IMG/VR virus record: IMGVR_UViG_3300033149_003577
Coordinates: 1-40,882 of that record
DNA: 40,882 nt
Source of the DNA: a virus
Strand: one strand, 5' to 3'
Shown here: positions 2,599 to 39,792 of the stretch, piece by piece
Layout of the letters: each line of letters opens with the position of its first letter
Position numbering within the stretch: position 1 is the first letter of the stretch
Position numbers and translations under genes: made by a program
Notes under the pieces: model-generated
The model's database searches: none
The model's input: only the letters and a program-made list of their open reading frames with translations
Told to the model about the DNA's origin: nothing

Positions 2599-3672
2599 TT
2601 ATATTGCCTTTTTTGAGCTTATATTGTTTTCTAATTGAGTCCTAATTGCCTCAAACATCTTTTCTAATGAAATTTTTGCCTGACAATCAGCAACGCCTGT
2701 TTCCTCGTCTCTTTTGCAGAAATCAAAGCCATAATGCAAAATATGACACGGATAACAGTCGCACCCTTCAGGCTCAAGCGAAATGCAATTAACCCAATCT
2801 CTTGTCAAATTCTCGATAGAGGAATGAGACAGGGTGATAATTTTGGGAACGGGCAGAAACGAAACAGCGTTCAAAACCCCCGTTTCCGGCCCGATTACAA
2901 GGTCGGCCATCTCCGCGAAGGTTAATGTCTGCCTGACAGACCAAATACCCGAACGGCGAATGATCCGTGGTTCTTTCTCCCACCCCATTTCAAGAATTTG
3001 TGACAGTGTGTCGCCCACGAAAACAATTTTTACATCAGGATATGTCAACATTATCCGAGCTACCGCATTGTCAAGCCACGGCCACGCCTTGTTGACAGAC
3101 GAACCGGACAATGTCCAAAGGATAACCCGTCCCCCGATGCTGTGATATTCCCTTGTCGCCCACTTTCTCTCCCGGTTGCTGGGATAAAACTTGACATGAT
3201 ACGGAGGGAAGGGGACTCCGGCGATTAAATGCGTCATATCGAGATAGTTATGATTCATATAAGCGTGTCGAGCTTCCTTGGGCCAATAAACATGAATCTT
3301 GCCTTTTGCCGCCAGCAGGGAGGACTCAACCGATTCGCTTAAATTAATGAACCTGTCAAAACATGCGGCCAGTTTGCCCCAATACGGCCCCAGCTCAGGG
3401 TTGGGCACTTGGTTGAATTCCTGGATAAAGAAAGCGTCAATGTAGGGATTAAATTTCAGCAGTTCGTATCCGCTGGATTCAACATTGAGGGTTACGTGAT
3501 AACCCTGTTGTTTCAAGCCTGGCAGAATAGAGCTTGCCTGAATATAATCGCCAATGCCGCCGTATCTGACAACACATGCGCTTTTCCCTGGTCTTTTCCC
3601 GCCCAAATCCTGCTCTTGCCAGCGGGCCAACAGGTCAAGGTATTCTATTTTTTTTGAGCTAATATTCGCCAT
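2599..3672 (-). CDS. GT9 (ADP-heptose:LPS heptosyltransferase-like) glycosyltransferase
   Basis: This 357-residue protein has the two-domain GT-B layout of family GT9. An early 'VVRYGGIGDYIQAS' loop (about residues 35-47) matches the N-terminal nucleotide-sugar signature. A later 'DLVIGPETGVLNAVSFL' segment matches the GT9 donor-binding motif. Known relatives transfer heptose to lipopolysaccharide core. The C-terminal part has a CDCYPC cluster (CxCxxC) and another Cys further on, which is unusual and may bind metal. It overlaps the methyltransferase gene by 28 nt and belongs to a four-gene sugar/methyl transfer cassette inside the virion operon. Its acceptor (host LPS or virion protein) is unknown. 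Confidence 0.8.
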   Translation of the reverse strand: MANISSKKIEYLDLLARWQEQDLGGKRPGKSACVVRYGGIGDYIQASSILPGLKQQGYHVTLNVESSGYELLKFNPYIDAFFIQEFNQVPNPELGPYWGKLAACFDRFINLSESVESSLLAAKGKIHVYWPKEARHAYMNHNYLDMTHLIAGVPFPPYHVKFYPSNRERKWATREYHSIGGRVILWTLSGSSVNKAWPWLDNAVARIMLTYPDVKIVFVGDTLSQILEMGWEKEPRIIRRSGIWSVRQTLTFAEMADLVIGPETGVLNAVSFLPVPKIITLSHSSIENLTRDWVNCISLEPEGCDCYPCHILHYGFDFCKRDEETGVADCQAKISLEKMFEAIRTQLENNISSKKAI

Positions 3673-4616
3673 TCGTTTTTCGTTACGTATTCAAATTGAC
3701 CGTTTAACGGGTCGCCATATCTTTCTTCTTTGATTATTGTCAATCCCTCGTCCCTGCATTTTTGGGCAACATGATCTGAACAACCAAGCCATATATGCTG
3801 GTCGGGGTGCATGTGGCCGAGTATTTGATTTTTTTTGCCTTCAAACCACAGTTTTGCGTCTGGGGCCGATAAGAACAAATAGCCTCCAGGCGAAACCGCC
3901 CTGCACAATTTTTCTATTACCGCAAGCGGATTATCGAGGTGTTCTATAAGATGACTGGCCCAAACAATGTCGTATTGACCGTCTATTTCGTCTTTTCCGA
4001 TATCGCCGTAGATGAATTTGCCGCCAACGCCTTTAATTTGCTTTTTGCGTTCCTTGGAGCAGGCCAAATCCAAGCCTGTTACCTTCCAGCCGCGCCTGCC
4101 AAAGCCAACCAAGATAGCCGTATTAGAGAACCCTACTTCGAGTAGTTTGCCTTTGGGGGGCAGATCAATGTCTTGAAAAATAACGCCCGCCAGCAATCCA
4201 TATTTTGGGTTTATTTTTTTGCCCAGCTTGTCGCCGTAATCTTCATCGTAAATGCCTTGATTAAGAAAGGCGCGGTCTGCCAGCACAAATGTCATGCTTT
4301 CAGGGCAAACGTTGTAATATCCAACTACGCCCCCTTCTTGAGCGGGGACAGTGTCCTTTCCCGTAAAAACGCATTTAGGATTTTCCACGTTCTGCCTGAA
4401 ACATGCGGAAAACAAATCAACAGCGCAATCCAAACTGCGGAGCTCACGGCCTTCAACCGCATCAAGCGTTTTTGCGGCTGTTGTGTAAATCTCGCAATCA
4501 TGTTCGTTTTGCAACCACTCAACAACGGCCTTGTTATATTCCTGTGATGTGCTGGGATTGAACAGCAAAACCTTCTGGTTTTTCGGCGGGGAGCAAAAGC
4601 CGGTTAATATTTTCAT
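3645..4616 (-). CDS. SAM-dependent methyltransferase (Class I fold)
   Basis: The 323-residue product has a Rossmann methyltransferase domain in its C-terminal half. It shows 'LLEVGFSNTAILVGFGRRG' (SAM-binding motif I), 'VTGLDLA' (acidic residue at strand 2), 'DIVWASHLIEHLDNP' (motif IV) and 'GGYLFLSAPD'. The N-terminal half is of unknown fold and begins 'MKILTGFCSPPKNQKVLLFN'. Methyltransferases of this type often sit in polysaccharide loci and methylate sugars. Here it is overlapped by the GT9 gene and starts inside the end of the zinc-finger gene (4-nt overlap), so it is tightly coupled to the cassette. Confidence 0.8.
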   Translation of the reverse strand: MKILTGFCSPPKNQKVLLFNPSTSQEYNKAVVEWLQNEHDCEIYTTAAKTLDAVEGRELRSLDCAVDLFSACFRQNVENPKCVFTGKDTVPAQEGGVVGYYNVCPESMTFVLADRAFLNQGIYDEDYGDKLGKKINPKYGLLAGVIFQDIDLPPKGKLLEVGFSNTAILVGFGRRGWKVTGLDLACSKERKKQIKGVGGKFIYGDIGKDEIDGQYDIVWASHLIEHLDNPLAVIEKLCRAVSPGGYLFLSAPDAKLWFEGKKNQILGHMHPDQHIWLGCSDHVAQKCRDEGLTIIKEERYGDPLNGQFEYVTKNEWRILAQKK

Positions 4617-5224
4617 TCAGCCCCTTCGTCCTCTTCGGCTTTTTCAAGGTTATATTCCAGCAATCGCCTTAACCGCTTTTCGCCAAGCCGTTTATCGTGG
4701 TCTATGCCGAGAAGATCAAGCCACTCCAAAATCTGTTCCCTGTCTAATTCAGCGGGGTTTATCGGCAATCCAAGTTTTGTTTTTTCTTCTTCCTCAACAA
4801 TACCGTCCGGCAAGTCGTCGGCTGGCGGTTCAAGTTCAATGTTCGGCGAGTTGAGCGCGGGCACGTTAACCGTAAACGACAAAACGCCATTATCGTAATA
4901 GAACGTTCCGTTGTTTTTGGTCTGCAAATAAGACAATTCCTTTTCGTCGGCATTGACAAAAAGGTCATAAAGTTTGTCTTTAATCTTTTGCGCCTCAAAC
5001 GCGCCCCCGTGAATGTTAATAACGTGGGCATCAATTTCGTCTTGCGTTGCGGCCTTAAACCGGCAACCGGATTCAGGACAAAGGAATTCTTCTACGTTAT
5101 CCGCATCATCATCAATTAGCCTCCCAGCCGGATCATATGTCCGTCCATCTTGTTCGTATCTAATGTTGCTGTCCCCATAAACCTCTGCGTAGGGTCTGCT
5201 TTTGTCAAGCATTTGCGTGGTCAT
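4613..5224 (-). CDS. Phage protein with a C2H2 zinc finger and HeH/SAP-like C-terminus
   Basis: The 203-residue protein contains a clear C2H2 pattern: C49-x4-C54-x12-H67-x4-H72. This is rare in bacteria and their phages. Near the C-terminus 'REQILEWLDLLGIDHDKRL' followed by 'LRRLLEYNL' resembles the small helix-extended-helix domains seen in phage structural and nucleic-acid-binding proteins. The middle is acidic. It lies between the 45-residue gene and the methyltransferase in the late operon. Nucleic-acid binding is plausible but the real function is unknown. Confidence 0.6.
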   Translation of the reverse strand: MTTQMLDKSRPYAEVYGDSNIRYEQDGRTYDPAGRLIDDDADNVEEFLCPESGCRFKAATQDEIDAHVINIHGGAFEAQKIKDKLYDLFVNADEKELSYLQTKNNGTFYYDNGVLSFTVNVPALNSPNIELEPPADDLPDGIVEEEEKTKLGLPINPAELDREQILEWLDLLGIDHDKRLGEKRLRRLLEYNLEKAEEDEGAE

Positions 5225-5248
5225 TGTTTGTCTGTTTCCTTTCCTTTT

Positions 5249-5386
5249 TTATCTCTTCTTTTTATGTTTGTAATATTCGACCTGAGCAAGTCGTTGCTCG
5301 GCTTCGGTTCTTGTATCGTAGGGGCCGCCTAAATTCTTGCCCTTGCGGGAAACAACATAATATTTGCCTTTTTTCTTTTTAATCAT
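5249..5386 (-). CDS. Small basic protein, 45 aa
   Basis: This gene translates as a 45-residue Lys-rich protein starting 'MIKKKKGKYYVVSRKGKN' and containing 'GGPYDTRTEAEQRLAQVEYY'. The Y-x-V-V-S-x-x-G/K-x-L-G-G-P-Y pattern with a helical 'EAEKRL' tail recalls small proteins often found beside phage head genes. The start overlaps the last 8 nt of the upstream glycosyltransferase gene, and a GAGGTGA-type ribosome site lies before it. No function is known. Confidence 0.65.
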   Translation of the reverse strand: MIKKKKGKYYVVSRKGKNLGGPYDTRTEAEQRLAQVEYYKHKKKR

Positions 5387-6320
5387 CTTCCATCACCTCT
5401 TTTATAACCGCGTGTAACTTCTCGTAATTTTTGATAGAATATTTGTCCTGCACCCATCGCCGATAAAAAGCGGGCCGATAACTTGAGTCTAAAATTAACG
5501 ATGCCGCCTCATCAACTGTCCTAAAAATAAGGTTTTCCGGGAATTGATCTCTGGCCCCAGGCCAATCATGAACAATGGGTTTAATGCCCATTGCCATCGC
5601 CTCAATAACGTTATTGGGATTGCCTTCGTTTATAGATGTTGACAAAAGACATCTCTTGTCTTTCAGCCAGTTATAAACTTTGTTAGACGAGATCACCCCC
5701 TCCATTTTAAATCTATCCATAAGTCCCAAGGAATCTATATATGATGTAATCTGCCCCGCGATTTGCGAGCCAGCAGGCAAGCCAATTTGATGTATTGTGA
5801 ATTCTTCCGGCAGGGCTAAAAGTATCTGGCAAGCCAAAGGAATATTTTTTACATTTTTTATCAAGCAGACCATGGCAATTTTCTTGCTGTTTTTTTTCGG
5901 CTTTATGGGCTTAAAATCATCGAAATTTATTACGTTCGGGATAACGTGTTGTTTCGTTTCCGGCGAAAGGCGTCCCTTGAAATCCAACCCCATCAACCTG
6001 TTAAAAACTTTATGATAGTATTCGGAAACAAAAATTATGGCATTTACCGCCTCAAAGTTTATCGCATTTAGTAAATCAGGCTCCCAAAATTCATAGCGTC
6101 TTAAATATGAAATAATTTTCTTGTCCGGGAAATATTGTGACCAGAACGCTGTTATTTCGTTCATCCACATCGAGATAAGCAGGTCTGCTTTATCGCTTAA
6201 GTCGCCTAATTTACCGCCATCGCTCGTATGGGTTACGGTTAAATCGTATTGATTAAGCTCTTTCTCAATATAGGGAACCCAGCGATTGCTCCATTCTGGA
6301 TAATGCAAAAGAATTTTCAT
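5379..6320 (-). CDS. Glycosyltransferase, GT-B fold (GT4-like)
   Basis: The product has 313 residues. The C-terminal half shows the GT4 donor-site pattern 'EGNPNNVIEAMAMGIKPIV', where the conserved E-x7-E pair holds the nucleotide sugar. The N-terminal half has a short Rossmann start ('MKILLHYPEWSNRWVPYIEKE'). It begins within the last 4 nt of the preceding glycosyltransferase gene (ATGA-type overlap), so the two are probably translated together. The acceptor is unknown; host surface polysaccharide or a virion protein are both possible. Confidence 0.8.
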   Translation of the reverse strand: MKILLHYPEWSNRWVPYIEKELNQYDLTVTHTSDGGKLGDLSDKADLLISMWMNEITAFWSQYFPDKKIISYLRRYEFWEPDLLNAINFEAVNAIIFVSEYYHKVFNRLMGLDFKGRLSPETKQHVIPNVINFDDFKPIKPKKNSKKIAMVCLIKNVKNIPLACQILLALPEEFTIHQIGLPAGSQIAGQITSYIDSLGLMDRFKMEGVISSNKVYNWLKDKRCLLSTSINEGNPNNVIEAMAMGIKPIVHDWPGARDQFPENLIFRTVDEAASLILDSSYRPAFYRRWVQDKYSIKNYEKLHAVIKEVMEDD

Positions 6321-7345
6321 GTCAGTTTTTTATACAACTCTTCAATCTTGTGAATATGGTTGTCCATGCACCAGTCGAATCTTTTAAAGGTGACGTTTTG
6401 CCTGCATTGACGGTGTTCCGCCCACCTGTCAACGATTTCATCTACGGTTGAAACTTTTATTCCAAAGCCATGCTCTTCAACGAAATCGCCCGCCCTGTCT
6501 GCGTTCAGGGCGATAATCGGTATGCCCGCAGCCAAGTATTCAAAAAGCTTGTTAGGCATAGCGTATTGCCAGACCATATGTTCTCCCAAATTGCCAACCA
6601 ATCCCCAATTATGACGTCCAATTTTGCGGATTAGCGTGGTATATGGGTAAGACCCACGCCAAAAGGCTTTCCCTTCGTAATGCTTGGCGGTTTTGCCGTC
6701 TTTGCGTGGGGTATATAGGTGAAGAGGGATGTCCCTCTTGGTTAATTCCTCGGCCAGTTTCGTGTAATCGCAATAGGCAAAAAAGGCTAGCTCTTCTGTG
6801 CCTATTTCGTCTGGCAGATCAATCCTCCCTTCATATACAATTCCGCCTATCCATTTCCAGGAATCCAGCCGATACAACTCTTTGGGCACGTATGAAGGCA
6901 GTACAACGTGCGGCTGGGTTAACCCAAATTCCTTCATACATGCCTCGCGCATCGGCTCTGACACGAATACAAGGCCGTCTGCAAGTTGAAAGTTGTTTCG
7001 TTCGTCAACGCTAATTCTAACGTTTTTCGTGTCTTCCGGTTTTACTCGAATCAGCATGGAATCATGCGCGTCAAGCACAACCGGCTTGTCTGGCAATACG
7101 CTTTTCACTGCGGTCACAAACCACGATGGTTCGTTGTGTACGTGAAAAATGTCCGCATCTTTGTGCAGTTTGATTAGTTCATATAATTGGTCAAGGTTGT
7201 TATAAAGCGAAAACGTTTTATACCTCTCCGCGAAAGAAGGAATCTTCCACGCTAGGCAATGGACATTGTGCCCCGCGTCCAAAAGGGGCAAGGCCTCCTT
7301 CTGAACGCGGATACAACAATGTCTGGCTATTTTAACAATCTTCAA
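6317..7345 (-). CDS. Glycosyltransferase, GT4-like
   Basis: This 342-residue protein opens with 'MKIVKIARHCCIRVQKEA' and 'LLDAGHNVHCLAWKIP', then has 'ADIFHVHNEPSWF' and 'DKPVVLDAHDS'. This is the usual N-domain order of GT4 enzymes. Towards the end 'QYAMPNKLFEYLAAGIPIIAL' is the classic donor-binding motif. It starts one base after the end of the decoration-protein gene. It therefore sits directly downstream of capsid genes in the late operon, an unusual place for a sugar transferase. Confidence 0.82.
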   Translation of the reverse strand: MKIVKIARHCCIRVQKEALPLLDAGHNVHCLAWKIPSFAERYKTFSLYNNLDQLYELIKLHKDADIFHVHNEPSWFVTAVKSVLPDKPVVLDAHDSMLIRVKPEDTKNVRISVDERNNFQLADGLVFVSEPMREACMKEFGLTQPHVVLPSYVPKELYRLDSWKWIGGIVYEGRIDLPDEIGTEELAFFAYCDYTKLAEELTKRDIPLHLYTPRKDGKTAKHYEGKAFWRGSYPYTTLIRKIGRHNWGLVGNLGEHMVWQYAMPNKLFEYLAAGIPIIALNADRAGDFVEEHGFGIKVSTVDEIVDRWAEHRQCRQNVTFKRFDWCMDNHIHKIEELYKKLT

Positions 7346-7752: not shown

Positions 7753-9465
7753 TTAAGCCGCAGATTCCCATTTAATAATGCGAGCCTGCGCGTGCGCGGT
7801 GTGAACAAGCCCAAAGCCGCCAAGGTAGTACCATGCTACACCTTTCGACCGCCCGTAATCAGTGGGAAGTTTCCCCCTCATCTCTTCGGGCACGGCGATA
7901 GCTTCGGCGACCGTATCCTGTCCAAAGAAAAAGCACCAGTCTGTATAGGTAGTGCCATCTTTGTCTATGTTGGTTTGTTCAACAAATCTGGTGTTCTCGT
8001 ACCGCCCGATCTCGCCATGGACAATTCGCCCGAAGCCTTCACCGGTATACTGGTAAATGCCTTCCAAGCTGTTCTTGAATGTCCTGAAGGTTGACGGCCA
8101 GGAAAGAGCGTAATAATCGTCTCCGGTATACGGATCAATGTTCCTTTCCTTCATGGCGTCAACAATGGCCTTGACGTGACCGGTATCCAGGGCCTTGCTT
8201 GACGTTCCGCCAACCGTGCCGGTGGTTGAAATGGAAACGGCTGTGGTTGAAGTGCCTCCAGAGGGATAAGCACGTAACGGAGTTTCATTGAATTGGTTGT
8301 AGGCTTGAGTGTCGAACGCCTTTTTTGCGTCGTTTTTCAAAACCTTATGGATGATCTCCTTCACGGGGTGTTCCGAGAGATCATCGAGCTTGCCGGAGTA
8401 CGGCACGCTGTTCGCCATTTCAGTTATGGTCAAGGTTCCCTGAGTTATCGTGAAATTCGTTTCAGGAGTGGTATTTGTTTCTGCAATAGTGCCACCCTGC
8501 GTCTCTACGTTTTGATAAACATTCCAGTGGAACGTATCGCCATGTTTCTTCCCCTGCTGTGTGGCGTCCCGCACGTCGCAAAACTGGCGGAACTTACAAG
8601 CAGGTTGCAAGGCCATACGCAATTCCTTCGAGAGATTATCGCTGTACATATACGTTCTGTTACTTTCGGCATTTTAACGCCTACTGACCAACCCTATGGG
8701 GCTGGCGGGTAATTATTTCTAATTACCTCTTGCAGTCTCCTGCAAGTCCAGAGTACATCTTTGCGGCAAGTTTTTACGCCGCAGATTGCTCATACTCGTT
8801 GAGGAGTCCCTCTACTAATTTTCTGTTATGGCCTGGCCGCTTCACAAAGCGTTTGTAGAAATCAACAACAATGCTTATGTCGCCGTAATCAAGACAAACA
8901 TTTCGGTGGTTGCCGTCGTTGTCCGCTATTTTCTTTAAACGCCTTGCCAGGTATTGAATAATCAAGTCAAGCCTGTGCCCTTTGTCGCCAAATATCCAGG
9001 GTCGCAATAGTTTTGCCAGCAAATAAGCGCTTTGAAGCCTTTTTACTATCAAGAAAAGCGTGGGGTCTTGTCCGCTGTATTTTTCGTCGCCTGGTTTTTT
9101 CGTTGGTTTCTGCGCTCTTTCTGACAAATAATATTTAAGGCCCAGCCGTTCTACTATATCAACGGCTTTTTTAATTATTCCCGCGTCTGTGTTATAAAGT
9201 TTAATTTCTACTCCTATTTTGGGCTTGCTTTTATGCCTCTCGTTTCTTATGAAACAGCTTAAAGCAAGCGATCCCTTGCCTTCTATAACACCGGCCAGCC
9301 ATGCAATTTCTGCCTTAGTAGGGGTTCCCTGCTGATTATCTCTATTCATAATATTTTCACCTGGGTAGTAATTATGACCTTTCAAGACGTTCCAGCATAT
9401 CGCAATCTTAGGAGGCCAATATGTCAACCTCCGAGGGAATTAACCACCCACAATTGGCCGCTCAT
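7753..9465 (-). CDS. Major capsid protein, gene interrupted by a group I intron (exons 9465-9427 and 8652-7753)
   Basis: The mature frame is 13 codons at 9465-9427 (MSGQLWVVNSLGG) joined to 8652-7753 (YMYSDNLSKELRMALQPACK...), giving 312 residues. The join restores the N-terminus expected for N4-gp56-like coat proteins: a short 'LGGYxYSDNLS' start, then 'PACKFRQFCDVRDATQQGKKHGD'. Exon 1 has its own ribosome site (AAGGAG, 8 nt before the ATG), whereas the apparent start at 8649 has none. The 'GKLDDLSEHPVKEIIHKVL' and C-terminal 'GFGLVHTAHAQARIIKW' segments fit the coat family. It follows the scaffold gene, as is normal. Read without splicing, the product would stop at codon 14. Confidence 0.85.
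8653..9426 (-). ncRNA. Group I self-splicing intron (774 nt) in the coat gene
   Basis: Exon end GGAGGU (9432-9427) pairs with intron CCUCC (9415-9411) to form P1, with the required U.G wobble (9427 with 9416) at the 5' splice site. The intron ends in G (8653), and both splice sites fall between whole codons. A P10 helix is available: intron ACAUAU (9424-9419) with exon-2 AUAUGU (8651-8646). A P4-like pair joins UGCUG (9397-9393) to CAGCA (9334-9330). After the endonuclease gene come two hairpins capped by GNRA tetraloops: a 7-bp stem with GAGA (8746-8729) and an 8-bp stem with GAAA (8727-8708). P7 could not be assigned with certainty. Confidence 0.88.
8774..9349 (-). CDS. LAGLIDADG homing endonuclease inside the intron
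   Basis: From ATG 9349 the product has 191 residues; the frame is also open from a TTG at 9427, which is less likely. Near the N-terminus 'WLAGVIEGKGSLAL' is a LAGLIDADG-type motif (usual form LAGLIDGEGS), after which come beta strands and a second half 'LQSAYLLAKLLRPWI'. It looks like a single-motif monomer that would act as a dimer. The first codons ('DNQQGTP') overlap the conserved intron core, as in many phage intron-encoded endonucleases. An AGGTGA ribosome site precedes it. It would cut intron-less coat genes and spread the intron. The second catalytic-position residue is Glu and the next is Lys, so activity should be checked. Confidence 0.85.
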   Translation of the reverse strand: MNRDNQQGTPTKAEIAWLAGVIEGKGSLALSCFIRNERHKSKPKIGVEIKLYNTDAGIIKKAVDIVERLGLKYYLSERAQKPTKKPGDEKYSGQDPTLFLIVKRLQSAYLLAKLLRPWIFGDKGHRLDLIIQYLARRLKKIADNDGNHRNVCLDYGDISIVVDFYKRFVKRPGHNRKLVEGLLNEYEQSAA

Positions 9466-14433: not shown

Positions 14434-14688
14434 TTAATCATCTCCCTTATAATCAGGATGCTCTTTAATCCGCGCCTCGACTGCGTGTAGGAACCAAAGT
14501 AGGTCTGTGGTTGTAGCAGGATAGTAAATCGTGTCTTGGATTTCATGATAAATCGCATAGCACGATTCACATAAGGCCCCAAGGCCCCCCGGTACTAAAG
14601 TGAAGCCTTGACTATGAACTATATGACCGAATTCATTTAGTTTTTTCTTACAAACAAAACATTGGTCTATACTTATTTGTTCCACCAT
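14434..14688 (-). CDS. Cys-rich putative zinc protein, 84 aa (paralogue 2)
   Basis: This protein has two CxxC pairs: 'CFVCKKK' near the start and 'LCESCYAIY' about 30 residues later, likely one zinc site. It ends 'IKEHPDYKGDD', the same ending as the neighbour at 14,691. The two genes are clearly tandem duplicates, with matching N-termini ('ISIDQCFVC'/'INLDQCFVC') but diverged middles. The ribosome site GGAGACGAT of this gene overlaps the last codons of the neighbour. Function unknown; DNA or protein binding near the terminase is possible. Confidence 0.6.
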   Translation of the reverse strand: MVEQISIDQCFVCKKKLNEFGHIVHSQGFTLVPGGLGALCESCYAIYHEIQDTIYYPATTTDLLWFLHAVEARIKEHPDYKGDD

Positions 14689-14690
14689 GG

Positions 14691-14966
14691 CTAATCGTCT
14701 CCCTTATAATCAGGGTGCTCTTTGATCTGTGACTTGACTGCGTGTAGGTACCCGTCTAGGCCCGAGCAAAAAGTGGGATATGTGGCGGGATAATTAATCG
14801 TATCTCGAATTTCCTGATAAATCGCACGGCATGATTCGCATAAAGCCCTAACGCACTCCCGCGTTATTACTATTGAAGGATCGTCCCAGCTAGTAATTAC
14901 ACTATCGAATTCGCTTATTTTTTTTCCGCAAACAAAACATTGATCCAGGTTTATTCGTTCTGTCAT
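14691..14966 (-). CDS. Cys-rich putative zinc protein, 91 aa (paralogue 1)
   Basis: This is a tandem paralogue of the 84-residue neighbour: 'CFVCGKK' near the start, 'ALCESCRAIYQEIRDTINYP' in the middle, and the shared C-terminus 'HPDYKGDD'. Four cysteines in two CxxC pairs suggest a zinc ribbon or knuckle. It starts just after the large terminase stop. It is 7 residues longer than its copy because of differences around the middle. No known function. Confidence 0.6.
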   Translation of the reverse strand: MTERINLDQCFVCGKKISEFDSVITSWDDPSIVITRECVRALCESCRAIYQEIRDTINYPATYPTFCSGLDGYLHAVKSQIKEHPDYKGDD

Positions 14967-17099: not shown

Positions 17100-17954
17100 T
17101 CAGGCGGCTATCCTCCTTCCTCTGATCGCTTTTTGATAACCTTCAATAATAAAATATTCGTCTGTAAAAATCCCATCTGTATAATAATTAAAACTGTTTA
17201 CTCTGGTTTTAACTGTTCTCCAAAATACAATCTTTTTTCCAAACAATTTAAATATATCGGCCCCCGCAAAATCTCCCAGTTTATGATGTCCAAAACTAGC
17301 GCAAAAGGCTTGATAAATATATTCAAATATCTCGGCGTCTAATTGAAGCTCTTTCTTTCGGGTATCGGTGGAAACTCTTCGCAATTGAAGATATTTAACG
17401 TTGTTAAATTCAGCAACAAACCGTATAATCCCCATTAATTCTATAAAATTATAACGATTAATTACTACCGATATGCGGCAATTATTGGTTCGTGGTATAA
17501 TATATTGCCAGTATGGTATTTCATAAACGCCGGTAATTTTGTGGTGAATATTGTAATCTAGCGAATTAATAGTATAGCCAATTTTTCCCCTGCAAGAATT
17601 TATTACATCCAAAAAACCAATAGCCTTGAACCCGTTTGTGCGTATCCCGACATTGAACCCCATATCGTCTTGAAGAAAATTTACAAGTTCCTCCAGGTAT
17701 TGGTAATTTAAGGGGTCAGTGTTTTGACCAGTTAAATAAAGTTTTTGGATGTTGTTGCGTTGGCAAAACAAGAGAAAACGATCAAAGTTTTCCCATTCGC
17801 CAAAATGAATATTATCAGATTTTGTTTTTGAGAACTCTTCTTCCAAATCTTTCCCAAGGCAAAAATAGCAATTAAAATTACAATCGCCTAACAGATTAAT
17901 GTTCGCAAATGTTGGGATATCTCTATCGTAATTTTTACTGAATGTCCCGTCCAT
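17100..17954 (-). CDS. Radical SAM protein
   Basis: ATG 17954 is preferred (one base after the upstream stop; 284 residues) over the longer frame to 18008. A radical SAM cluster motif C25-x3-C29-x2-C32 lies in 'GDCNFNCYFCLGKD', followed by a 'LYLTGQNTDPLNYQYLEEL' strand where the usual GGE motif stands, then 'VGIRTNGF'. These bind a 4Fe-4S cluster and S-adenosylmethionine and make a 5'-deoxyadenosyl radical. No second Cys-rich (SPASM) domain is seen. The base composition looks more AT-rich than its neighbours. It lies between a glycyl-radical-like gene and the small terminase, flanked by 16-bp direct repeats. Substrate unknown. Confidence 0.85.
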   Translation of the reverse strand: MDGTFSKNYDRDIPTFANINLLGDCNFNCYFCLGKDLEEEFSKTKSDNIHFGEWENFDRFLLFCQRNNIQKLYLTGQNTDPLNYQYLEELVNFLQDDMGFNVGIRTNGFKAIGFLDVINSCRGKIGYTINSLDYNIHHKITGVYEIPYWQYIIPRTNNCRISVVINRYNFIELMGIIRFVAEFNNVKYLQLRRVSTDTRKKELQLDAEIFEYIYQAFCASFGHHKLGDFAGADIFKLFGKKIVFWRTVKTRVNSFNYYTDGIFTDEYFIIEGYQKAIRGRRIAA

Positions 17955-17991
17955 GCTATCCGATATTAACAGCCGTCCTCCTTCCTCTGAT
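17111..17991 (-). repeat. 16-bp direct repeats flanking the radical SAM gene
   Basis: Identical copies TCCTCCTTCCTCTGAT (plus strand) lie at 17111-17126 and 17976-17991. They encode 'IRGRR' at the C-terminus of both the radical SAM protein and the upstream glycyl-radical-like protein. They also supply a GGAGG-type ribosome site. The 865-bp repeat-to-repeat unit contains the whole radical SAM gene, which suggests cassette insertion or duplication. Confidence 0.8.
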
Positions 17992-18384
17992 GCTCTCAGG
18001 CGTAACATCGCGGCCCAAGAAAAACTTCTGGCCGTTAACCTTGTCCCGGTCTCTCAATTCACCCAACTTGCCCTTGTTCCATTGCTCAACTTTCGTGAAA
18101 TATCCCGTAATCCTGGTTATTTGTTCCATATACAGCCCCCGCGTAAGCTCTTCGTATAGATCGTGCGGCGAGATGTACCTTAAAACGCTATTGTCTACAT
18201 ACGTGATATTGTTAGGATAATTGTCATACCATCTAAAACCGCCAACCCTGAAGGCCATCCCGGTGCTGTCCTCCACCTCAGCCGCCTCCACCCCAACATT
18301 ACCGTCACTATCAACCTTCTTAACAGGCTGAAATTCAACCTCCGGGTGATCCGCAAGAAACTTGTCAAATTCTTCTAATGTCAA
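17956..18384 (-). CDS. Stand-alone NrdD C-terminal-like / glycyl-radical-like domain protein
   Basis: The product has 142 residues and probably starts at TTG 18384 (GAGAGG upstream; the TTGA overlaps the previous stop). 'TRITGYFTKVEQWNKGKLGE' (about residues 90-109) matches the C-terminal end of anaerobic ribonucleotide reductase NrdD. There R-x-x-G-Y carries the glycyl radical and is followed by WN-x-GK-x-E. Here Gly94 would be the radical site. Full NrdD is about 600-700 residues, so this is only the radical-domain part, like the small spare-part protein GrcA/YfiD. A radical SAM gene follows after one base. Whether Gly94 is ever activated is unknown; similar small phage genes are often labelled as reductase fragments. 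Confidence 0.65.
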   Translation of the reverse strand: MTLEEFDKFLADHPEVEFQPVKKVDSDGNVGVEAAEVEDSTGMAFRVGGFRWYDNYPNNITYVDNSVLRYISPHDLYEELTRGLYMEQITRITGYFTKVEQWNKGKLGELRDRDKVNGQKFFLGRDVTPESIRGRRTAVNIG

Positions 18385-23706: not shown

Positions 23707-24534
23707 CTATTTAGTTTCGTTTTTGCGCTTTGCCTCGATTTCTAACTCTCTTAACTCTAGACACTCCTTTTCGGTTTTTGTTTTGTCATAAATGAAGTCG
23801 TAATGCTCCCCCGCCAGCCATTCGTATATCCGCTTGACGGGGATAAACAGTCCCATGTGAGTGATAGGCACACGGGCGGTCCAAGAAATTTGTGTGGTTG
23901 CCACCATGCAGGGTATGCCGATAAACTCTCCGGTGTGCGCCAAAAACATGGCCCCGCCTGAATTGCCGTAAATAATCTGGCTTGTGCTCATATCGTAATA
24001 CAGGGAGTCTACCAAAAAATTAACTCTGCTAATTTCGCCTGGCGTGCGTAGCGGCGGGAACAACAAACTGCACCCGGCGGCAACCGTGGGGTAGGATATA
24101 TAATATTTAGGCGGCGGGTTTTTTACAGTTGCGACGTATTGAACCTTTTCATCATATCTAAGTTTAAGCAGGGCTAGATCGTTGCGCTCGCTGTAAATTA
24201 CTATGTCCGCTTCGACCTTCAGGGTGCCCGTCGGCGTTGACAGGTTGTGGTACTTGAAAATTTCAACATAGACCGTGCTGCGCTTTTCAACCTGAACATT
24301 TTTTGATAAATCGCTATCCCATTCTTCCATTATCGAGATTGCGCCAGCAACAACATGATAATTTGTCAAAATATAGGTACTGTATTTATACATATCGCCG
24401 CTTCCGGGCCGTGAATACAGCACCGTGCCAGAGCCGCCGACGTTTCCCACTGTAACCCGCACGATAGGATATAGCATTTTCTCGTGTATTTTTTTTGTTG
24501 ACATGGGTTTGTGTAGAGATTGCGCCCCTAACAA
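23707..24534 (-). CDS. Trypsin-like serine protease, N-terminus possibly frameshifted
   Basis: All three catalytic residues of a chymotrypsin-fold protease are visible: His60 in 'LTNYHVVAG', Asp119 in 'ERNDLALLKL' and Ser192 in 'YGNSGGAMF'. No signal peptide is seen in this frame. The start is doubtful: TTG 24534 or ATG 24504 both lack a ribosome site. At 24617 an ATG with AGGAGG 7 nt upstream reads a short frame through a T8 run (24,601-24,594); a -1 shift there would join it to the protease frame. It may cleave a host or phage protein. Proteases with this triad are uncommon in phage early operons. Confidence 0.8.
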   Translation of the reverse strand: MLGAQSLHKPMSTKKIHEKMLYPIVRVTVGNVGGSGTVLYSRPGSGDMYKYSTYILTNYHVVAGAISIMEEWDSDLSKNVQVEKRSTVYVEIFKYHNLSTPTGTLKVEADIVIYSERNDLALLKLRYDEKVQYVATVKNPPPKYYISYPTVAAGCSLLFPPLRTPGEISRVNFLVDSLYYDMSTSQIIYGNSGGAMFLAHTGEFIGIPCMVATTQISWTARVPITHMGLFIPVKRIYEWLAGEHYDFIYDKTKTEKECLELRELEIEAKRKNETK

Positions 24535-30770: not shown

Positions 30771-30857
30771 ATGGAATCTAAGTGGTTAGACCGTGCGGCC
30801 TATGTTGGGCTGCTGATCGCTTTTGGCTACATGTTTTGGCAGTTTTTTATTCGATAA
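30771..30857 (+). CDS. Tiny single-pass membrane protein, 28 aa
   Basis: GGAGGG lies 7 nt before ATG 30771. The 28-residue frame has a charged start 'MESKWLDRAAY' and one hydrophobic helix 'VGLLIAFGYMFWQFF', ending in IR. It fills the gap between the basic gene and the paralogue array. It could be a membrane-acting peptide; the role is unknown. Confidence 0.5.
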   Translation: MESKWLDRAAYVGLLIAFGYMFWQFFIR

Positions 30858-30873
30858 AAGGAGTGGTGAATCA

Positions 30874-31638
30874 ATGTATAAATTAACCAGACCTGATGGC
30901 ACAGACTTTTTTTCCGGCACCATAAATTACGCCGAAAATATCGGCAAGGTTATACGTGTCACTGATTATGATGGACCAGAAAAGGGTACGTGGGGCAAGG
31001 GCATCCATGCTTCACGCAACCCGAATGATATTTTTCCGCTGGCAACGATACCTTGCAGGGCATTTAAAGTGAAGGGAATACAGCGAATAGCGGGAGATGA
31101 ACGCTGGGCTCGTTATCAAGCGGTAAGGGTTTTGGAAGAAGTCACTGGCCTTGACAAGTTGTTCGGCTGGAAATACTCGGAGGCCGTCAACCCTGTTAAT
31201 CCTTTTGAAATTAAACCGCCTAAAATTAATGATTCTCATATTGACCTGCTGGGGCAATGGGCTTTGGTTTGGGATTTAGTTCTGTGGTCAATTCATGATT
31301 CGGGCCTGAATCCAGAGCGAAGCGCACTTGGGAAATCTCTTCGATATTCGGTGATAGAGTTGATCGCGGATGCGGCGACAGATTTAGTTTTGCGCGAGGT
31401 TAAATTTTCGATTATAGACCCCCTTGTAGATTCGGTTTGGAGCGCGGCTTGGGCCTATATATGTTCTTTTTTCCCATTTATTAAAAAATGGAAACATGTA
31501 GACCACAAACCAGGCGAATATCCTTTTCAATACGCGGCAACCTTGTGGAAGCAGGGCCTTGTGCCTTCCTTTGACGGCGAGACGTGGAGGTTGCACGGCG
31601 GGGAGAAGGCAAGGGTTTTGTGGGAGGGCAAATTTTAA
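30874..31638 (+). CDS. Tandem paralogue A, 254 aa (unknown family)
   Basis: ATG 30874 with AAGGAG upstream is chosen over the longer frame. The protein has a conserved N-terminal domain ('MYKLTRPDGTDFFSGTINYA', 'GKGIHASRNPND', 'LDKLFGWKYSEAVNPVNPFE'). A variable helical middle (about residues 120-190) and a conserved C-terminal stretch ('AATLWKQGLVPSFDGETWRL') follow. It is the first of three tandem copies. The N-terminal domain pattern 'GxGxHASRNPND...RVLEEVTxLDxLFGWxY' occurs in other phage proteins of unknown role. Its stop overlaps the next copy's start (TAATG). Confidence 0.75.
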   Translation: MYKLTRPDGTDFFSGTINYAENIGKVIRVTDYDGPEKGTWGKGIHASRNPNDIFPLATIPCRAFKVKGIQRIAGDERWARYQAVRVLEEVTGLDKLFGWKYSEAVNPVNPFEIKPPKINDSHIDLLGQWALVWDLVLWSIHDSGLNPERSALGKSLRYSVIELIADAATDLVLREVKFSIIDPLVDSVWSAAWAYICSFFPFIKKWKHVDHKPGEYPFQYAATLWKQGLVPSFDGETWRLHGGEKARVLWEGKF

Positions 31639-32435
31639 TGTATACGCTAACCAAACTTGACGGCACGGACTTCTACTCTGGCAAGATCAATTTCGCCGAA
31701 AATATCGGCAAGGTTGTGCGAATTAGCGATTGTGACTGGTCGGGATACGAGGAAGACGATGTGATATTCGCCCTGGGCATTAAAGCCGCGCACAACCCGA
31801 ATGATTGCCTTGTTGGAGGCAGGATACCCTGCCGTGCATTCAGGGTGAAGGGGGTACAACGAATAGCGGGGGATAAAACCAAGACCCATTATCAGGCGGT
31901 AAAAGTTTTAGAAGAAATTACCGACCTTGACAGCCTGTTCGGGTGGAAATACTCGGAGGCCATGAACCCTGTTAATCCTTTTGAAATTAAACCGCCTAAA
32001 ATTAATGATTCTCATATTGGCCTGCTGGGGCAATGGGCTTTGATTCAGGATTTGATATGGGACTTGAATGAGTTTTCGATCAAAGCATCAATTCTTCATA
32101 CAGCCGTTAATGTGATTGACTCGTCTATTCTATATTCGCTTGAAAGAATAATATATGATGAAGTGTGGGAGCCGATTCTTCGTTCGGTCGAGGCCGAGGC
32201 TGAGGATTGGATTAAGGTTTTACTTTTGAATTCGATCCGGTATGCGGTTTGGGCCTACATAGGCTCCCTGTTCCCCAACATCAAAAAGTGGAAATATATA
32301 AACCATAAGCCAGGCGTACATCCTTTTCAATGCGCGGTAACCCTGTGGAAGCAGGGCCTTGTGCCTTCCTTTGACGGCGAGACGTGGAGGTTGCACGGCG
32401 GGGAGAAGGCAAGGGTTTTGTGGGAGGGCAAATTT
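31544..32435 (+). repeat. 92-bp identical direct repeat at the 3' ends of paralogues A and B
   Basis: Positions 31,544-31,635 and 32,344-32,435 are identical over 92 nt, exactly 800 nt apart. Each repeat includes the C-terminal codons and the GGGAGG ribosome site of the following copy. A second near-identical block in all three copies (about 31,171-31,260, 31,944-32,033 and 32,764-32,850) codes for 'KYSEAMNPVNPFEIKPPK'. These point to recent duplication or gene conversion. Confidence 0.85.
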
Positions 32436-32450
32436 CAATGTATGTATTAA
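31638..32450 (+). CDS. Tandem paralogue B, 270 aa
   Basis: ATG 31638 overlaps the TAA of paralogue A. The N-domain ('MYTLTKLDGTDFYSGKINFA', 'LGIKAAHNPND', 'LDSLFGWKYSEAMNPVNP') and the C-terminal stretch match paralogue A closely. The middle (from about residue 137 to 215) is different and helical ('DEVWEPILRSVEAEAEDWIK'). A TAA-to-CAA change at the ancestral stop adds three residues, so its end overlaps paralogue C's start by 13 nt. Function unknown. Confidence 0.75.
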   Translation: MYTLTKLDGTDFYSGKINFAENIGKVVRISDCDWSGYEEDDVIFALGIKAAHNPNDCLVGGRIPCRAFRVKGVQRIAGDKTKTHYQAVKVLEEITDLDSLFGWKYSEAMNPVNPFEIKPPKINDSHIGLLGQWALIQDLIWDLNEFSIKASILHTAVNVIDSSILYSLERIIYDEVWEPILRSVEAEAEDWIKVLLLNSIRYAVWAYIGSLFPNIKKWKYINHKPGVHPFQCAVTLWKQGLVPSFDGETWRLHGGEKARVLWEGKFQCMY

Positions 32451-33649
32451 CCAAACCTGACGGGACGAGCTTTGACTCCGACACGATCAATTACGCTGAA
32501 AACATCGGCAAGGTTGTGCGAATCACCGATTACGATTGGTCGGAGGAGGAAGAAATAGACGAGGAGGAAGAAATAATATGGGGCAGGGGCATCCGCGCCG
32601 CGCGCAATCCGAATGATTGTTTTGTTTTTCCTGCGGTAGAAATGCCTTGCCGAGCATTTAAAATAAGGGGAATTCAACGAATAGTGGGGGGTAAACGCTG
32701 GGTTCACTATCGAGCAGCCAAGGTTTTGGAAGAAGTTACCGACCTTGACAAGTTGTTCGGCTGGAAATACTCGGAGGCCATGAACCCTGTTAATCCTTTT
32801 GAAATTAAACCGCCTAAAATCAATGATTCTCATATTGACCTGCTGAAGCAATGGGACTCGATCCGAAGCTCGGCTTGGTGGGGGGTGCGGAAGTCTATTG
32901 AACGCTTCATAACAAGCGCAGGCGAAGTTAAGAACCCGATACGCAGAACATCAACTTGGAAATTGATTTTGGAATTGGTTTTTGCCTCTCTCGGATATCC
33001 AGATTGGGATTCAAATGTGGCTTTTTCGATACGACGCTCTCTTTATGAAGCAGCCTATGCCTACACAGGCACCTTGTTCCCAAGCATCAAAAAGTGGGAG
33101 GAGATAGACCATAAGCCGGGTGAATACCCCTTTCAGCCCGTAGTGGATTTATGGAAACAGGGGCTTATCCCCACTTTTGACGGCAGGATATGGAGATTGC
33201 ATGGTGGTAAAAAGGCGAAGGTTTTATGGGAAGACAAAAAGAGGGTTATTGACATTGCGAAAAACGTAGAGATAGACCCGCTCCTAGATGCAATTCAGAT
33301 TGACCCATATATAGCTTACTATTTCCACAAGAAGATCTGGCTATGGTGCGCGGGTAATCCCGAAAAAAAGGAAAAAGAGTGGCCCATGTGGGAAAAGAAC
33401 GGGGGAATAATTCCGCAACTAATAGCCGCGCATCCTGCCTGCGAGTTTAAAGTTGCGCAATCAAACGCATTCATCTCAACCTGTGACAAATATTGTTTGG
33501 TGGATTGGCCGGGGGGTAGGTGTACTGATCTCCCTAACGGGATTATGGGACTAGGCGAGAGATGGCGGACGGCGGAACAGAAAAAAGAACGCTCTCGCCT
33601 TGCCCGCCAAATAGCAAACCTGCCCATGCGAGATCGCTACAAAAAATAG
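32438..33649 (+). CDS. Tandem paralogue C, 403 aa, with extra C-terminal domain
   Basis: ATG 32438 follows the conserved GGGAGG of the repeat. The first 260 residues follow the same plan as copies A and B, with an acidic insertion (EEEIDEEEEI) near residue 30. A further 130 residues ('IDPYIAYYFHKKIWLWCAGN', 'IPQLIAAHPACEFKVAQSNA', 'NGIMGLGERWRTAEQKKERS') are absent from A and B. This may be the ancestral full-length form. Function unknown. Confidence 0.72.
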   Translation: MYVLTKPDGTSFDSDTINYAENIGKVVRITDYDWSEEEEIDEEEEIIWGRGIRAARNPNDCFVFPAVEMPCRAFKIRGIQRIVGGKRWVHYRAAKVLEEVTDLDKLFGWKYSEAMNPVNPFEIKPPKINDSHIDLLKQWDSIRSSAWWGVRKSIERFITSAGEVKNPIRRTSTWKLILELVFASLGYPDWDSNVAFSIRRSLYEAAYAYTGTLFPSIKKWEEIDHKPGEYPFQPVVDLWKQGLIPTFDGRIWRLHGGKKAKVLWEDKKRVIDIAKNVEIDPLLDAIQIDPYIAYYFHKKIWLWCAGNPEKKEKEWPMWEKNGGIIPQLIAAHPACEFKVAQSNAFISTCDKYCLVDWPGGRCTDLPNGIMGLGERWRTAEQKKERSRLARQIANLPMRDRYKK

Positions 33650-38660: not shown

Positions 38661-39179
38661 ATGCGTGAACTCAGTCTTTTTACGGGAGCCGGCGGTGGCA
38701 TATGGGCTACAAAATATTTACTTGGCTGGCAGACCGTGGGATATGTGGAGATAGACGACTATTGCCAACGAGTTATCAGGCAAAGGATAGATGACGGATA
38801 CTTTGACAACGCGCCAATTTTCGGCGATATCCGAACATTCATTGATTCAGGGTACGCCGAGCAATATACGGGAATGGTTGATGTCATTACCGCCGGATTC
38901 CCTTGTCAGCCCTTTTCGGTTGCGGGAAAGCGAGAAGGAGAGTCAGACCCCCGAAATCTTTGGCCGGAAACCGAAGAGTGCATACGCTTGGTACGACCCC
39001 GATTCGTTTTGTTGGAAAACGTACCAGGGCTCCTTGCTCACCGGTACATACGACGAATTTTCGGAGACTTGGCCGAGAGCGGGTATGATTGTAGATGGAA
39101 AGTTATATCTGCGGCAGAAGTGGGAGCGCCGCATAAACGTGATAGGCTCTGGATTCTGGCGCACACCCCATGCGAGTGA
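38661..39179 (+). CDS. DNA (cytosine-5) methyltransferase, catalytic part (172 aa)
   Basis: The motifs of a C5-cytosine methyltransferase are present in order: 'SLFTGAGGG' (SAM site, residues 5-13), 'FPCQPFS' with catalytic Cys82, 'LLENVPG' (ENV, 119-121) and 'HKRDRLW' (motif VIII, 158-164). The frame then stops, so the target-recognition region and motifs IX-X are missing. They are encoded in the +1 frame (38,791-39,792), which overlaps this gene by 389 nt. No ribosome site is seen before ATG 38661. Active enzyme probably needs both products, or a frameshift. Confidence 0.85.
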   Translation: MRELSLFTGAGGGIWATKYLLGWQTVGYVEIDDYCQRVIRQRIDDGYFDNAPIFGDIRTFIDSGYAEQYTGMVDVITAGFPCQPFSVAGKREGESDPRNLWPETEECIRLVRPRFVLLENVPGLLAHRYIRRIFGDLAESGYDCRWKVISAAEVGAPHKRDRLWILAHTPCE

Positions 39180-39792
39180 CGGTGAAGGCGGTGTTATGGA
39201 GATGAGAGAGGGTGTTGCCGGTCATTATAAATTGAGAGATCACGTCCAAGAAAAGAATAAGCGGTACTGGCCCACGCCAAGTAGGGGTTCAGACACCGGA
39301 GGGCAAGGGATTGGACTAACTGGTGGCTCTGGAAACCGCCACAAGTTTTATGAGATGATGAAAGAACGTGGATACGAAAAACCGGAAAAGCTATTAGGTC
39401 AGCTTAATCCCGATTGGGTGGAATGGCTGATGGGATGGCCGATTGGCACGTCAAGGCTTGAGCCGATGGAAGAAATTGTCTGGCTGGGTTGGGAGATAGA
39501 CCCTGCGGATGGGGGTGCAAATTTAACAACGGCGGTCAAAATGTGGCCTTCTCCTCGCGCTGGAAATCCTGGAAGCCGCCCAAATCAAAAGGGCGGCAAA
39601 ATATTGGCAGAAGAAGCAAAAAAAATTAATGGCGGTGGCCCTATCCCTCGTGTAACCACGAACACTAAAGATAGAGTCAATCGCCTTAAGGCTTTGGGAA
39701 ACGGCATGGTTCCTTTGTGTGTAGCGTTGGCATGGAAAATATTATCTGGCATAAAAAAAGAAAGAGGCTTAACCCTTGACATTCAACCCTGA
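38791..39792 (+). CDS. Second methyltransferase frame: dual-coded N-part plus C-terminal motifs (333 aa)
   Basis: The first 129 codons overlap the catalytic methyltransferase gene in the +1 frame, yet read like a conserved protein: 'REWLMSLPPDSLVSPFRL', 'AWYDPDSFCWKTYQGSLLTG' and 'EFSETWPRAGMIVDGKLYLR'. Similar phrases occur in phage methyltransferase-associated proteins. The rest has 'LNPDWVEWLMGWPIG' (205-219) and 'NRLKALGNGMVP' (297-308). The latter is the motif IX/X region that the catalytic half lacks. ATG 38791 has AAAGG 4 nt upstream, so separate translation is plausible. It probably completes a split enzyme. Confidence 0.75.
   Translation: MTDTLTTRQFSAISEHSLIQGTPSNIREWLMSLPPDSLVSPFRLRESEKESQTPEIFGRKPKSAYAWYDPDSFCWKTYQGSLLTGTYDEFSETWPRAGMIVDGKLYLRQKWERRINVIGSGFWRTPHASDGEGGVMEMREGVAGHYKLRDHVQEKNKRYWPTPSRGSDTGGQGIGLTGGSGNRHKFYEMMKERGYEKPEKLLGQLNPDWVEWLMGWPIGTSRLEPMEEIVWLGWEIDPADGGANLTTAVKMWPSPRAGNPGSRPNQKGGKILAEEAKKINGGGPIPRVTTNTKDRVNRLKALGNGMVPLCVALAWKILSGIKKERGLTLDIQP

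Follow-up and report, generated by a model that had tools for sequence, protein, structure and literature searches.

The major coat gene of an uncultured phage is interrupted after its thirteenth codon, at Gly-Gly|Tyr, by an insert that we consider, with a probability of about 0.92, to be a self-splicing group I intron that carries a LAGLIDADG gene, would be spliced to give a 312-residue coat protein, arrived by homing and now encodes an endonuclease that is probably dead. The phage is represented by an IMG/VR virus record, and the window, by which we mean the whole stretch of DNA analyzed, comprises 40,882 bases. An earlier note on this DNA had proposed a 774-nt group I intron at 9426-8653 after coat codon 13, and that proposal is supported by a match to a leave-one-out covariance model, by covariation among related introns and by empty sites in the coat genes of relatives. 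Feature coordinates are collected in Table 1.

The interrupted coat gene and its intronless relatives

On the minus strand, in the frame that comes after the scaffold ORF, an ATG at 9465-9463 with a ribosome site upstream (AGGAG, 9475-9471) opens a reading frame that encodes MSGQLWVVNSLGG and then meets a TGA at 9426-9424. A second frame, from an ATG at 8649, is a 298-aa ORF that holds the remainder of the coat protein. As had been claimed in the earlier note, excision of 774 nt (9426..8653) joins the two frames in phase: the junction becomes ...GGT|TAT ATG TAC..., and the joined exons encode a 312-residue coat protein that begins MSGQLWVVNSLGGYMYSDNLSKELRM. At the level of sequence, excision thus restores an intact gene, as the joined 312-aa frame can be matched to intronless relatives from residue 1 to residue 312. 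In a profile search exon 2 matched phrog_1357, a major head protein family (E = 1.4e-16), and its neighbors include genes for an SU10-type portal (E = 1.3e-37), a scaffold (weak match, E = 0.0074) and a terminase. Based on the profile match and its location after the portal and scaffold genes, we assign the gene to phrog_1357. The phage is podovirus-like, and the intron interrupts its major coat gene.

In a tblastn search, 39 phage records matched 80% or more of the length of the joined protein, among them Vibrio phage 219E41 and relatives, Escherichia phage PTXU04 and Streptomyces phages. Among viral contigs with a coat match, of which the best 80 of 170 were kept, the coat was uninterrupted in 79, with an N-terminus of MAGQVWAVNSLGGYMYS or similar, and all 79 of these intronless relatives aligned through residues 1-30. 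Gly12 and Gly13 were invariant across 59 distinct intronless sequences, residue 14 was Tyr or Phe, and the first base of codon 14 was always T. Since these residues are fixed in the 59 sequences, the intron site (GG|Y) lies in invariant codons.

It could be argued that there is no intron, and that the coat gene is broken by the insert, leaving a shorter coat protein that starts at ATG 8649, where the 298-aa ORF begins. We regard this as exceedingly improbable, as no ribosome site lies ahead of 8649, the extra N-terminus is conserved in every intronless relative, and the insert has a covarying group I core whose splice elements match the exons. Homologous coat proteins starting at the residue encoded at 8649, which the earlier note had named as evidence that would speak against an intron, were not found among the intronless relatives, since 79/79 read through the junction.

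Table 1. Features of the interrupted coat gene and its intron in the window
Feature	Position	Strand	Evidence
Coat exon 1 (13 codons, MSGQLWVVNSLGG)	9427..9465	-	N-terminus conserved in 79 intronless relatives
Coat exon 2 (299 codons + stop)	7753..8652	-	phrog_1357 match; tblastn residues 1-312
Group I intron, 774 nt	8653..9426	-	covariance model, covariation, related introns
P1: exon GGAGGU 9432-9427 / guide GCCUCC 9416-9411, with U9427.G9416 at 5' splice site	9411..9432	-	72/72 pairs, 12 introns
P10 guide ACAUAU; partner 3' exon AUAUGU 8651-8646	9419..9424	-	sequence
P3 5' strand AGAUUGC; partner GCAAUCU 8789-8783	9402..9408	-	69/72 pairs
P4-P5 region, GCUGG...AAUCAGC	9331..9396	-	sub-threshold RF00028 alignment 9397-9266; invariant columns
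P5-extension hairpin UCAUAAU/AUUAUGA; holds ORF ATG 9349-9347	9346..9377	-	sequence and related introns
Intron ORF, LAGLIDADG protein, 191 aa	8774..9349	-	profiles, predicted structure
Codon AAG (K25), at catalytic D/E position of LAGLIDADG	9275..9277	-	motif comparison
P7 5' strand GAGUAU; partner GUACUC 8756-8751	8792..8797	-	covariation, covariance model
P8 GCGGC/GCCGC	8763..8782	-	covariation, covariance model
P9 CUUGCAG-GAGA-CUGCAAG; GNRA loop GAGA 8739-8736	8729..8746	-	covariation, covariance model
P9.1 GGUAAUUA-GAAA-UAAUUACC; GNRA loop GAAA 8719-8716	8708..8727	-	sequence
P9.2 hairpin CCAGCCC-CAUA-GGGUUGG	8688..8705	-	sequence

The ribozyme core and splice sites

Introns related to that in the window were found via the intron ORF in loci L081-L083, L084-L086, L142, L138 and L178 and in two MAG contigs (L223 and L224), and via its coat in L001. 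The elements that had been drawn from the letters, namely a P1 with its U.G pair, P10, a terminal G, a P4-like pair and two GNRA-capped hairpins, are all present. The window has the U.G pair in P1 and the terminal G (G8653) of a group I intron, as well as the conserved P3-P4-P5-P6-P7-P8 core in which P7 and P3 are interleaved; the P4-P6 piece appears in the RF00028 alignment.

The check suggested for the Rfam group I models had a divided outcome. No match was found in a gathering-threshold search of the whole window with Rfam, and at relaxed thresholds RF00028 matched the window in two pieces of 16.1 and 11.0 bits, below its gathering value of 50 bits, which is a curator's threshold and no defining feature of group I introns. 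We attribute the miss to divergence and to the splitting of the core by the 576-nt ORF. A one-piece RF00028 alignment over 8966-8729 was rejected in favor of the split core, since it mis-placed P1. With a covariance model built from ten related introns, the window being left out, there was a single group I match in the window (8813-8707, 74.8 bits, E = 2.9e-19), and the same model found no match in 20-odd intronless coat loci searched alongside.

Many compensatory changes were seen in P1, P3, P7, P8 and P9 across 12 related introns. Pairing within introns was complete in P1 (72/72) and P8 (48/48) and nearly so in P3 (69/72), P7 (65/72) and P9 (65/72). When strands were swapped between introns only 57-74% of positions paired, and for each of the five helices 0 of 20,000 re-pairings were as good, a count that is no strict probability, as the sequences are related. 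The P1 guide strand in this test was the best match chosen near the splice site, and P1 was tested by anchored strands because its MAFFT alignment was poor. Pair counting in P7, P8 and P9 of ten introns, again excluding the window, found 91.4% of cells paired and 39 double-changed cells, where shuffling gave a mean of 13.6 and none of 500 shuffles was as high; the covariation score for the ten introns was 0.648 versus 0.234 in shuffled alignments, and all slid controls were far lower.

The computations show the structure of the intron, and its boundaries to within 1 nt. The readings 9426/8653 and 9425/8652 yield an identical mRNA because intron and exon 2 both start with T, and the terminal-G rule favors 9426..8653. 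The intron follows codon 13 in the window, L084, L142, L223 and L224, and in L081-L083 and L085 it lies 1 nt later, with one base of codon 14 ahead of it (GGN GGN T|...G|AT ATG). In the proposed mechanism exon 1 would be held at its end by the guide at 9416-9411 and exon 2 by P10, and splicing would then give the 312-residue coat protein, as the structure and the empty sites suggest.

Translation and splicing

The intron ORF begins within P5 and at its other end runs through P7, P3' and P8, with its stop codon in the P8 loop. Its ATG at 9349 has a ribosome site (AGGTG, 9362-9358) in the loop of the P5-extension hairpin; a start at TTG 9427, which would give 217 aa, was rejected, as both the relatives and the ribosome site favor ATG 9349. 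A 7-bp hairpin (9377-9371/9352-9346) pairs the ORF start codon of the window with CAU, and most relatives have theirs in the same hairpin (as GTG with CAC in L081), the exceptions being L138 and L223. In 11/11 introns measured, an in-frame stop codon occurs within 15 nt of the intron start. An early in-frame stop and a hairpin-hidden start are known means of excluding ribosomes from a folding intron (PMC3073962). Ribosomes arriving from exon 1 would halt at the splice-site TGA, and burial of the ORF start codon in the P5-extension hairpin would keep translation out of the core until splicing.

This arrangement resembles that of T4 td/I-TevI, where the ORF lies in P6 and creeps into P7 and a hairpin hides the ribosome site; a stop codon just past the 5' splice site is likewise shared with T4 td and with group I introns generally (PMC3073962). 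T4 td differs in having a GIY-YIG enzyme and in interrupting the thymidylate synthase gene (PMC3073962).

The earlier note had raised the idea that the intron gates late expression, and splicing could be imagined as a regulated switch for the timing of coat production, given that most relatives have the ORF start codon paired in the P5-extension hairpin and that control between translation and splicing is known for T4 td/I-TevI (PMC3073962). We consider this very improbable: the hairpin arrangement shields splicing and is expected without any switch, and most relatives are intronless, so control of coat timing is independent of the intron. We infer that the start-codon hairpin and the early stop support protection of splicing, and the idea of a gate found no support.

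The intron-encoded protein

That a LAGLIDADG gene lies inside the intron was borne out. In a Pfam scan the window ORF fell under the LAGLIDADG cut-off, and the related intron ORFs exceeded those of LAGLIDADG_3 or LAGLIDADG_1. A profile of nine proteins matched I-OnuI, I-CvuI and other LAGLIDADG structures in a PDB profile search. The AlphaFold2 model of the ORF (pLDDT 82.7) resembles I-CreI and I-MsoI, with best E values of about 1e-6 to 2e-6 and TM scores of up to 0.76 by target length, and has the LAGLIDADG fold with a single motif, as in I-CreI.

The motif in the window is LAGVIEGKG, in which the penultimate position, that of the catalytic acid, is Lys25. This position was E in 22 and D in 5 of 28 distinct motifs, nearly all of them from loci found with patterns that left it free, and K in the window alone. 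In enzymes of the I-OnuI/I-CreI type, the residue aligned with K25 is the catalytic acid, and the structure of I-CreI(D20N) was among the structural matches of the model. The LAGLIDADG catalytic acid is required for cleavage. Because K25 replaces that acid, the window protein is probably cleavage-dead, and its earlier description as an endonuclease needs correcting to one that is probably inactive, with K25 set against D or E in 27/27 other distinct motifs. With an endonuclease probably unable to cut, the window intron is likely past its mobile phase.

Apart from this codon the ORF is intact, without visible decay, and it is nearer to the other site-A proteins than L084 is. Its intactness means that the loss was recent, or that K25 is an error, or that the protein has another function. 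Resting on one codon of a metagenome contig, K25 may be an assembly or sequencing error. An intron as described here whose protein is an active endonuclease, K25 being an error or tolerated, would fit the intact ORF, the E or D of the other site-A proteins and the GAG that L084, the nearest relative, has in place of AAG, one G-to-A change apart; we think it unlikely, if well worth bearing in mind, in view of the alignment of K25 with the catalytic acid and the uniformity of D/E in the other motifs. Retention of the ORF as a maturase that aids folding of the intron, with its nuclease function gone, would account for a long ORF free of decay despite loss of the acid, and maturase-like activity was reported for a Thermotoga LAGLIDADG intron protein (PMC3984707). 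That is less probable again, as recent loss explains the intact ORF equally well and the core is complete without help from a protein. We favor a protein that has probably lost cleavage.

Related introns and the genes they interrupt

Introns at the same site were found in nine other coat genes (L081-L086, L142, L223 and L224), with the frame restored in each upon excision, and homologous introns occur at two further sites of the same coat gene. The nearest coat relative, L001 (80% aa identity), has a related but different intron 22 codons downstream, after Lys-Phe-Arg|Gln, which is invariant too. In the coat tree, which has long branches, was built without a mixture model and was used for strongly supported statements only, the next nearest coats after L001 are intronless. 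L082 and L083 have introns that are 92% identical in nucleotides and ORFs 94% identical in amino acids, and coats that are only 57% identical; from this we infer recent horizontal transfer of their intron. The relatives are consistent with arrival by endonuclease-driven homing into coat genes, as may have happened in the window. L082 has a second intron near coat residue 235 (3139-3469; RF00028, 80.5 bits, which passes the cut-off) with no complete ORF. Neither the HEG protein nor the intron DNA matched any of 50,697 phage records, and we accordingly found no isolate with a near relative of the intron. A scan of viral contigs with a 15-base core pattern was discarded, as its 119 stretches were about what a rough chance estimate gave and few held an intron.

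Phage introns usually lie in polymerase, reductase or terminase genes. When a wider search with ORF profiles was filtered by the core model, about 55 loci with such a core remained, and the interrupted gene was classified in 49 distinct loci, comprising 12 window-type coats, 5 others and 32 exon-2 ORFs. The five others are coats of phrog_9953 type (L087, L089 and L091) and phrog_1328 type (L088 and L092). The 32 exon-2 ORFs, scanned as a set, matched 12 PHROG families, 11 of them major head protein and one unknown; a major head match was found for 17/19 of those scanned singly, and by our reading of the tallies 29/32 belong to major head families. Major capsid genes of several PHROG families are thus interrupted in about 46/49 classified loci, and no interrupted gene of another known class was found among the 49. 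The remaining three of the 32 exon-2 ORFs (L266, L272 and L281, 54-57% alike) are of one type, without a PHROG match, and possibly represent an unrecognized capsid family.

Several loci have more than one such element. In L261 (3295-6660) a window-type coat is in five pieces (residues 1-48, 54-258, 258-273, 275-295 and 289-312), with intron-core matches between most of them, and the phrog_1328-type capsid loci L288, L315 and L322 each have several intron-core matches (3 to 5 strong).

We lean, by a modest margin, toward the view that the window intron belongs to a LAGLIDADG group I lineage almost restricted to phage major capsid genes, at many sites, in several PHROG major-head families and with as many as about four introns in a single coat gene (L261). 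Since the sample was seeded from coat introns, the capsid preference is a strong lead and no measured enrichment.

Other features of the window

Between the coat and later structural genes (2599-7345) are a glycosyltransferase-like ORF (5379-6320) and other sugar- or methyl-transfer-like ORFs. Two neighboring small cysteine-rich paralogues of 84 and 91 aa lie at 14434-14966; the one scanned had no Pfam match. A radical-SAM match at 17100-18008 was weak and under the Pfam cut-off, and a trypsin-like peptidase domain was found at 23707-24534. Three tandem paralogous ORFs at 30823-33649, with repeat units of about 800 nt and DNA 77-85% identical, had no Pfam match. At 38661-39792 is a C-5 cytosine methylase whose 172-aa first ORF covers only PF00145 positions 1-161 and is followed by an overlapping second ORF; the gene is possibly split or frameshifted.

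Comparison with known introns and implications

Capsid introns with LAGLIDADG ORFs and major capsid protein (MCP) genes with multiple introns are already known (PMC3706429, PMC7886860). Splicing of the capsid-gene intron of mycobacteriophage LittleE was shown in vivo by RT-PCR, and lactococcal phage Tuc2009 is cited alongside it as a case of a capsid intron (PMC3706429). Compared by description rather than by sequence, the LittleE and window introns both interrupt a major capsid gene, are of similar size (the LittleE insert being about 820 bp, or 819 bp as published), follow a U, end in G and encode a LAGLIDADG protein related to I-CreI; they differ in phage group and insertion site, and the LittleE ORF is on the opposite strand (PMC3706429). 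Delta and Zeta crAss-like phages also have group I introns in the MCP gene, one of which is in five fragments, similar to L261; their introns occur in PolB, primase and other genes as well, whereas the lineage described here is found almost only in capsid genes (PMC7886860). In PhiPA3, the intron endonuclease gp210 targets an essential gene of a rival phage (PMC11620839), which is a possible benefit for the active relatives of the window intron. However, gp210 is an HNH enzyme in an RNA polymerase gene (PMC11620839), and the window enzyme is probably inactive. Neither the apparently inactive enzyme nor the capsid-restricted lineage was found in the literature searched, and the capsid specialization looks undescribed.

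Phage surveys both target the coat gene and use it as a marker, and introns in it conceal the true N-terminus, as gene callers would give a truncated coat and a free ORF. If the capsid preference is true, it raises the question of why a selfish intron family tracks capsid genes across families that share little sequence; possible causes would be the late, high-level transcription of these genes, conserved codons that encode the fold, or interference with rival phages.
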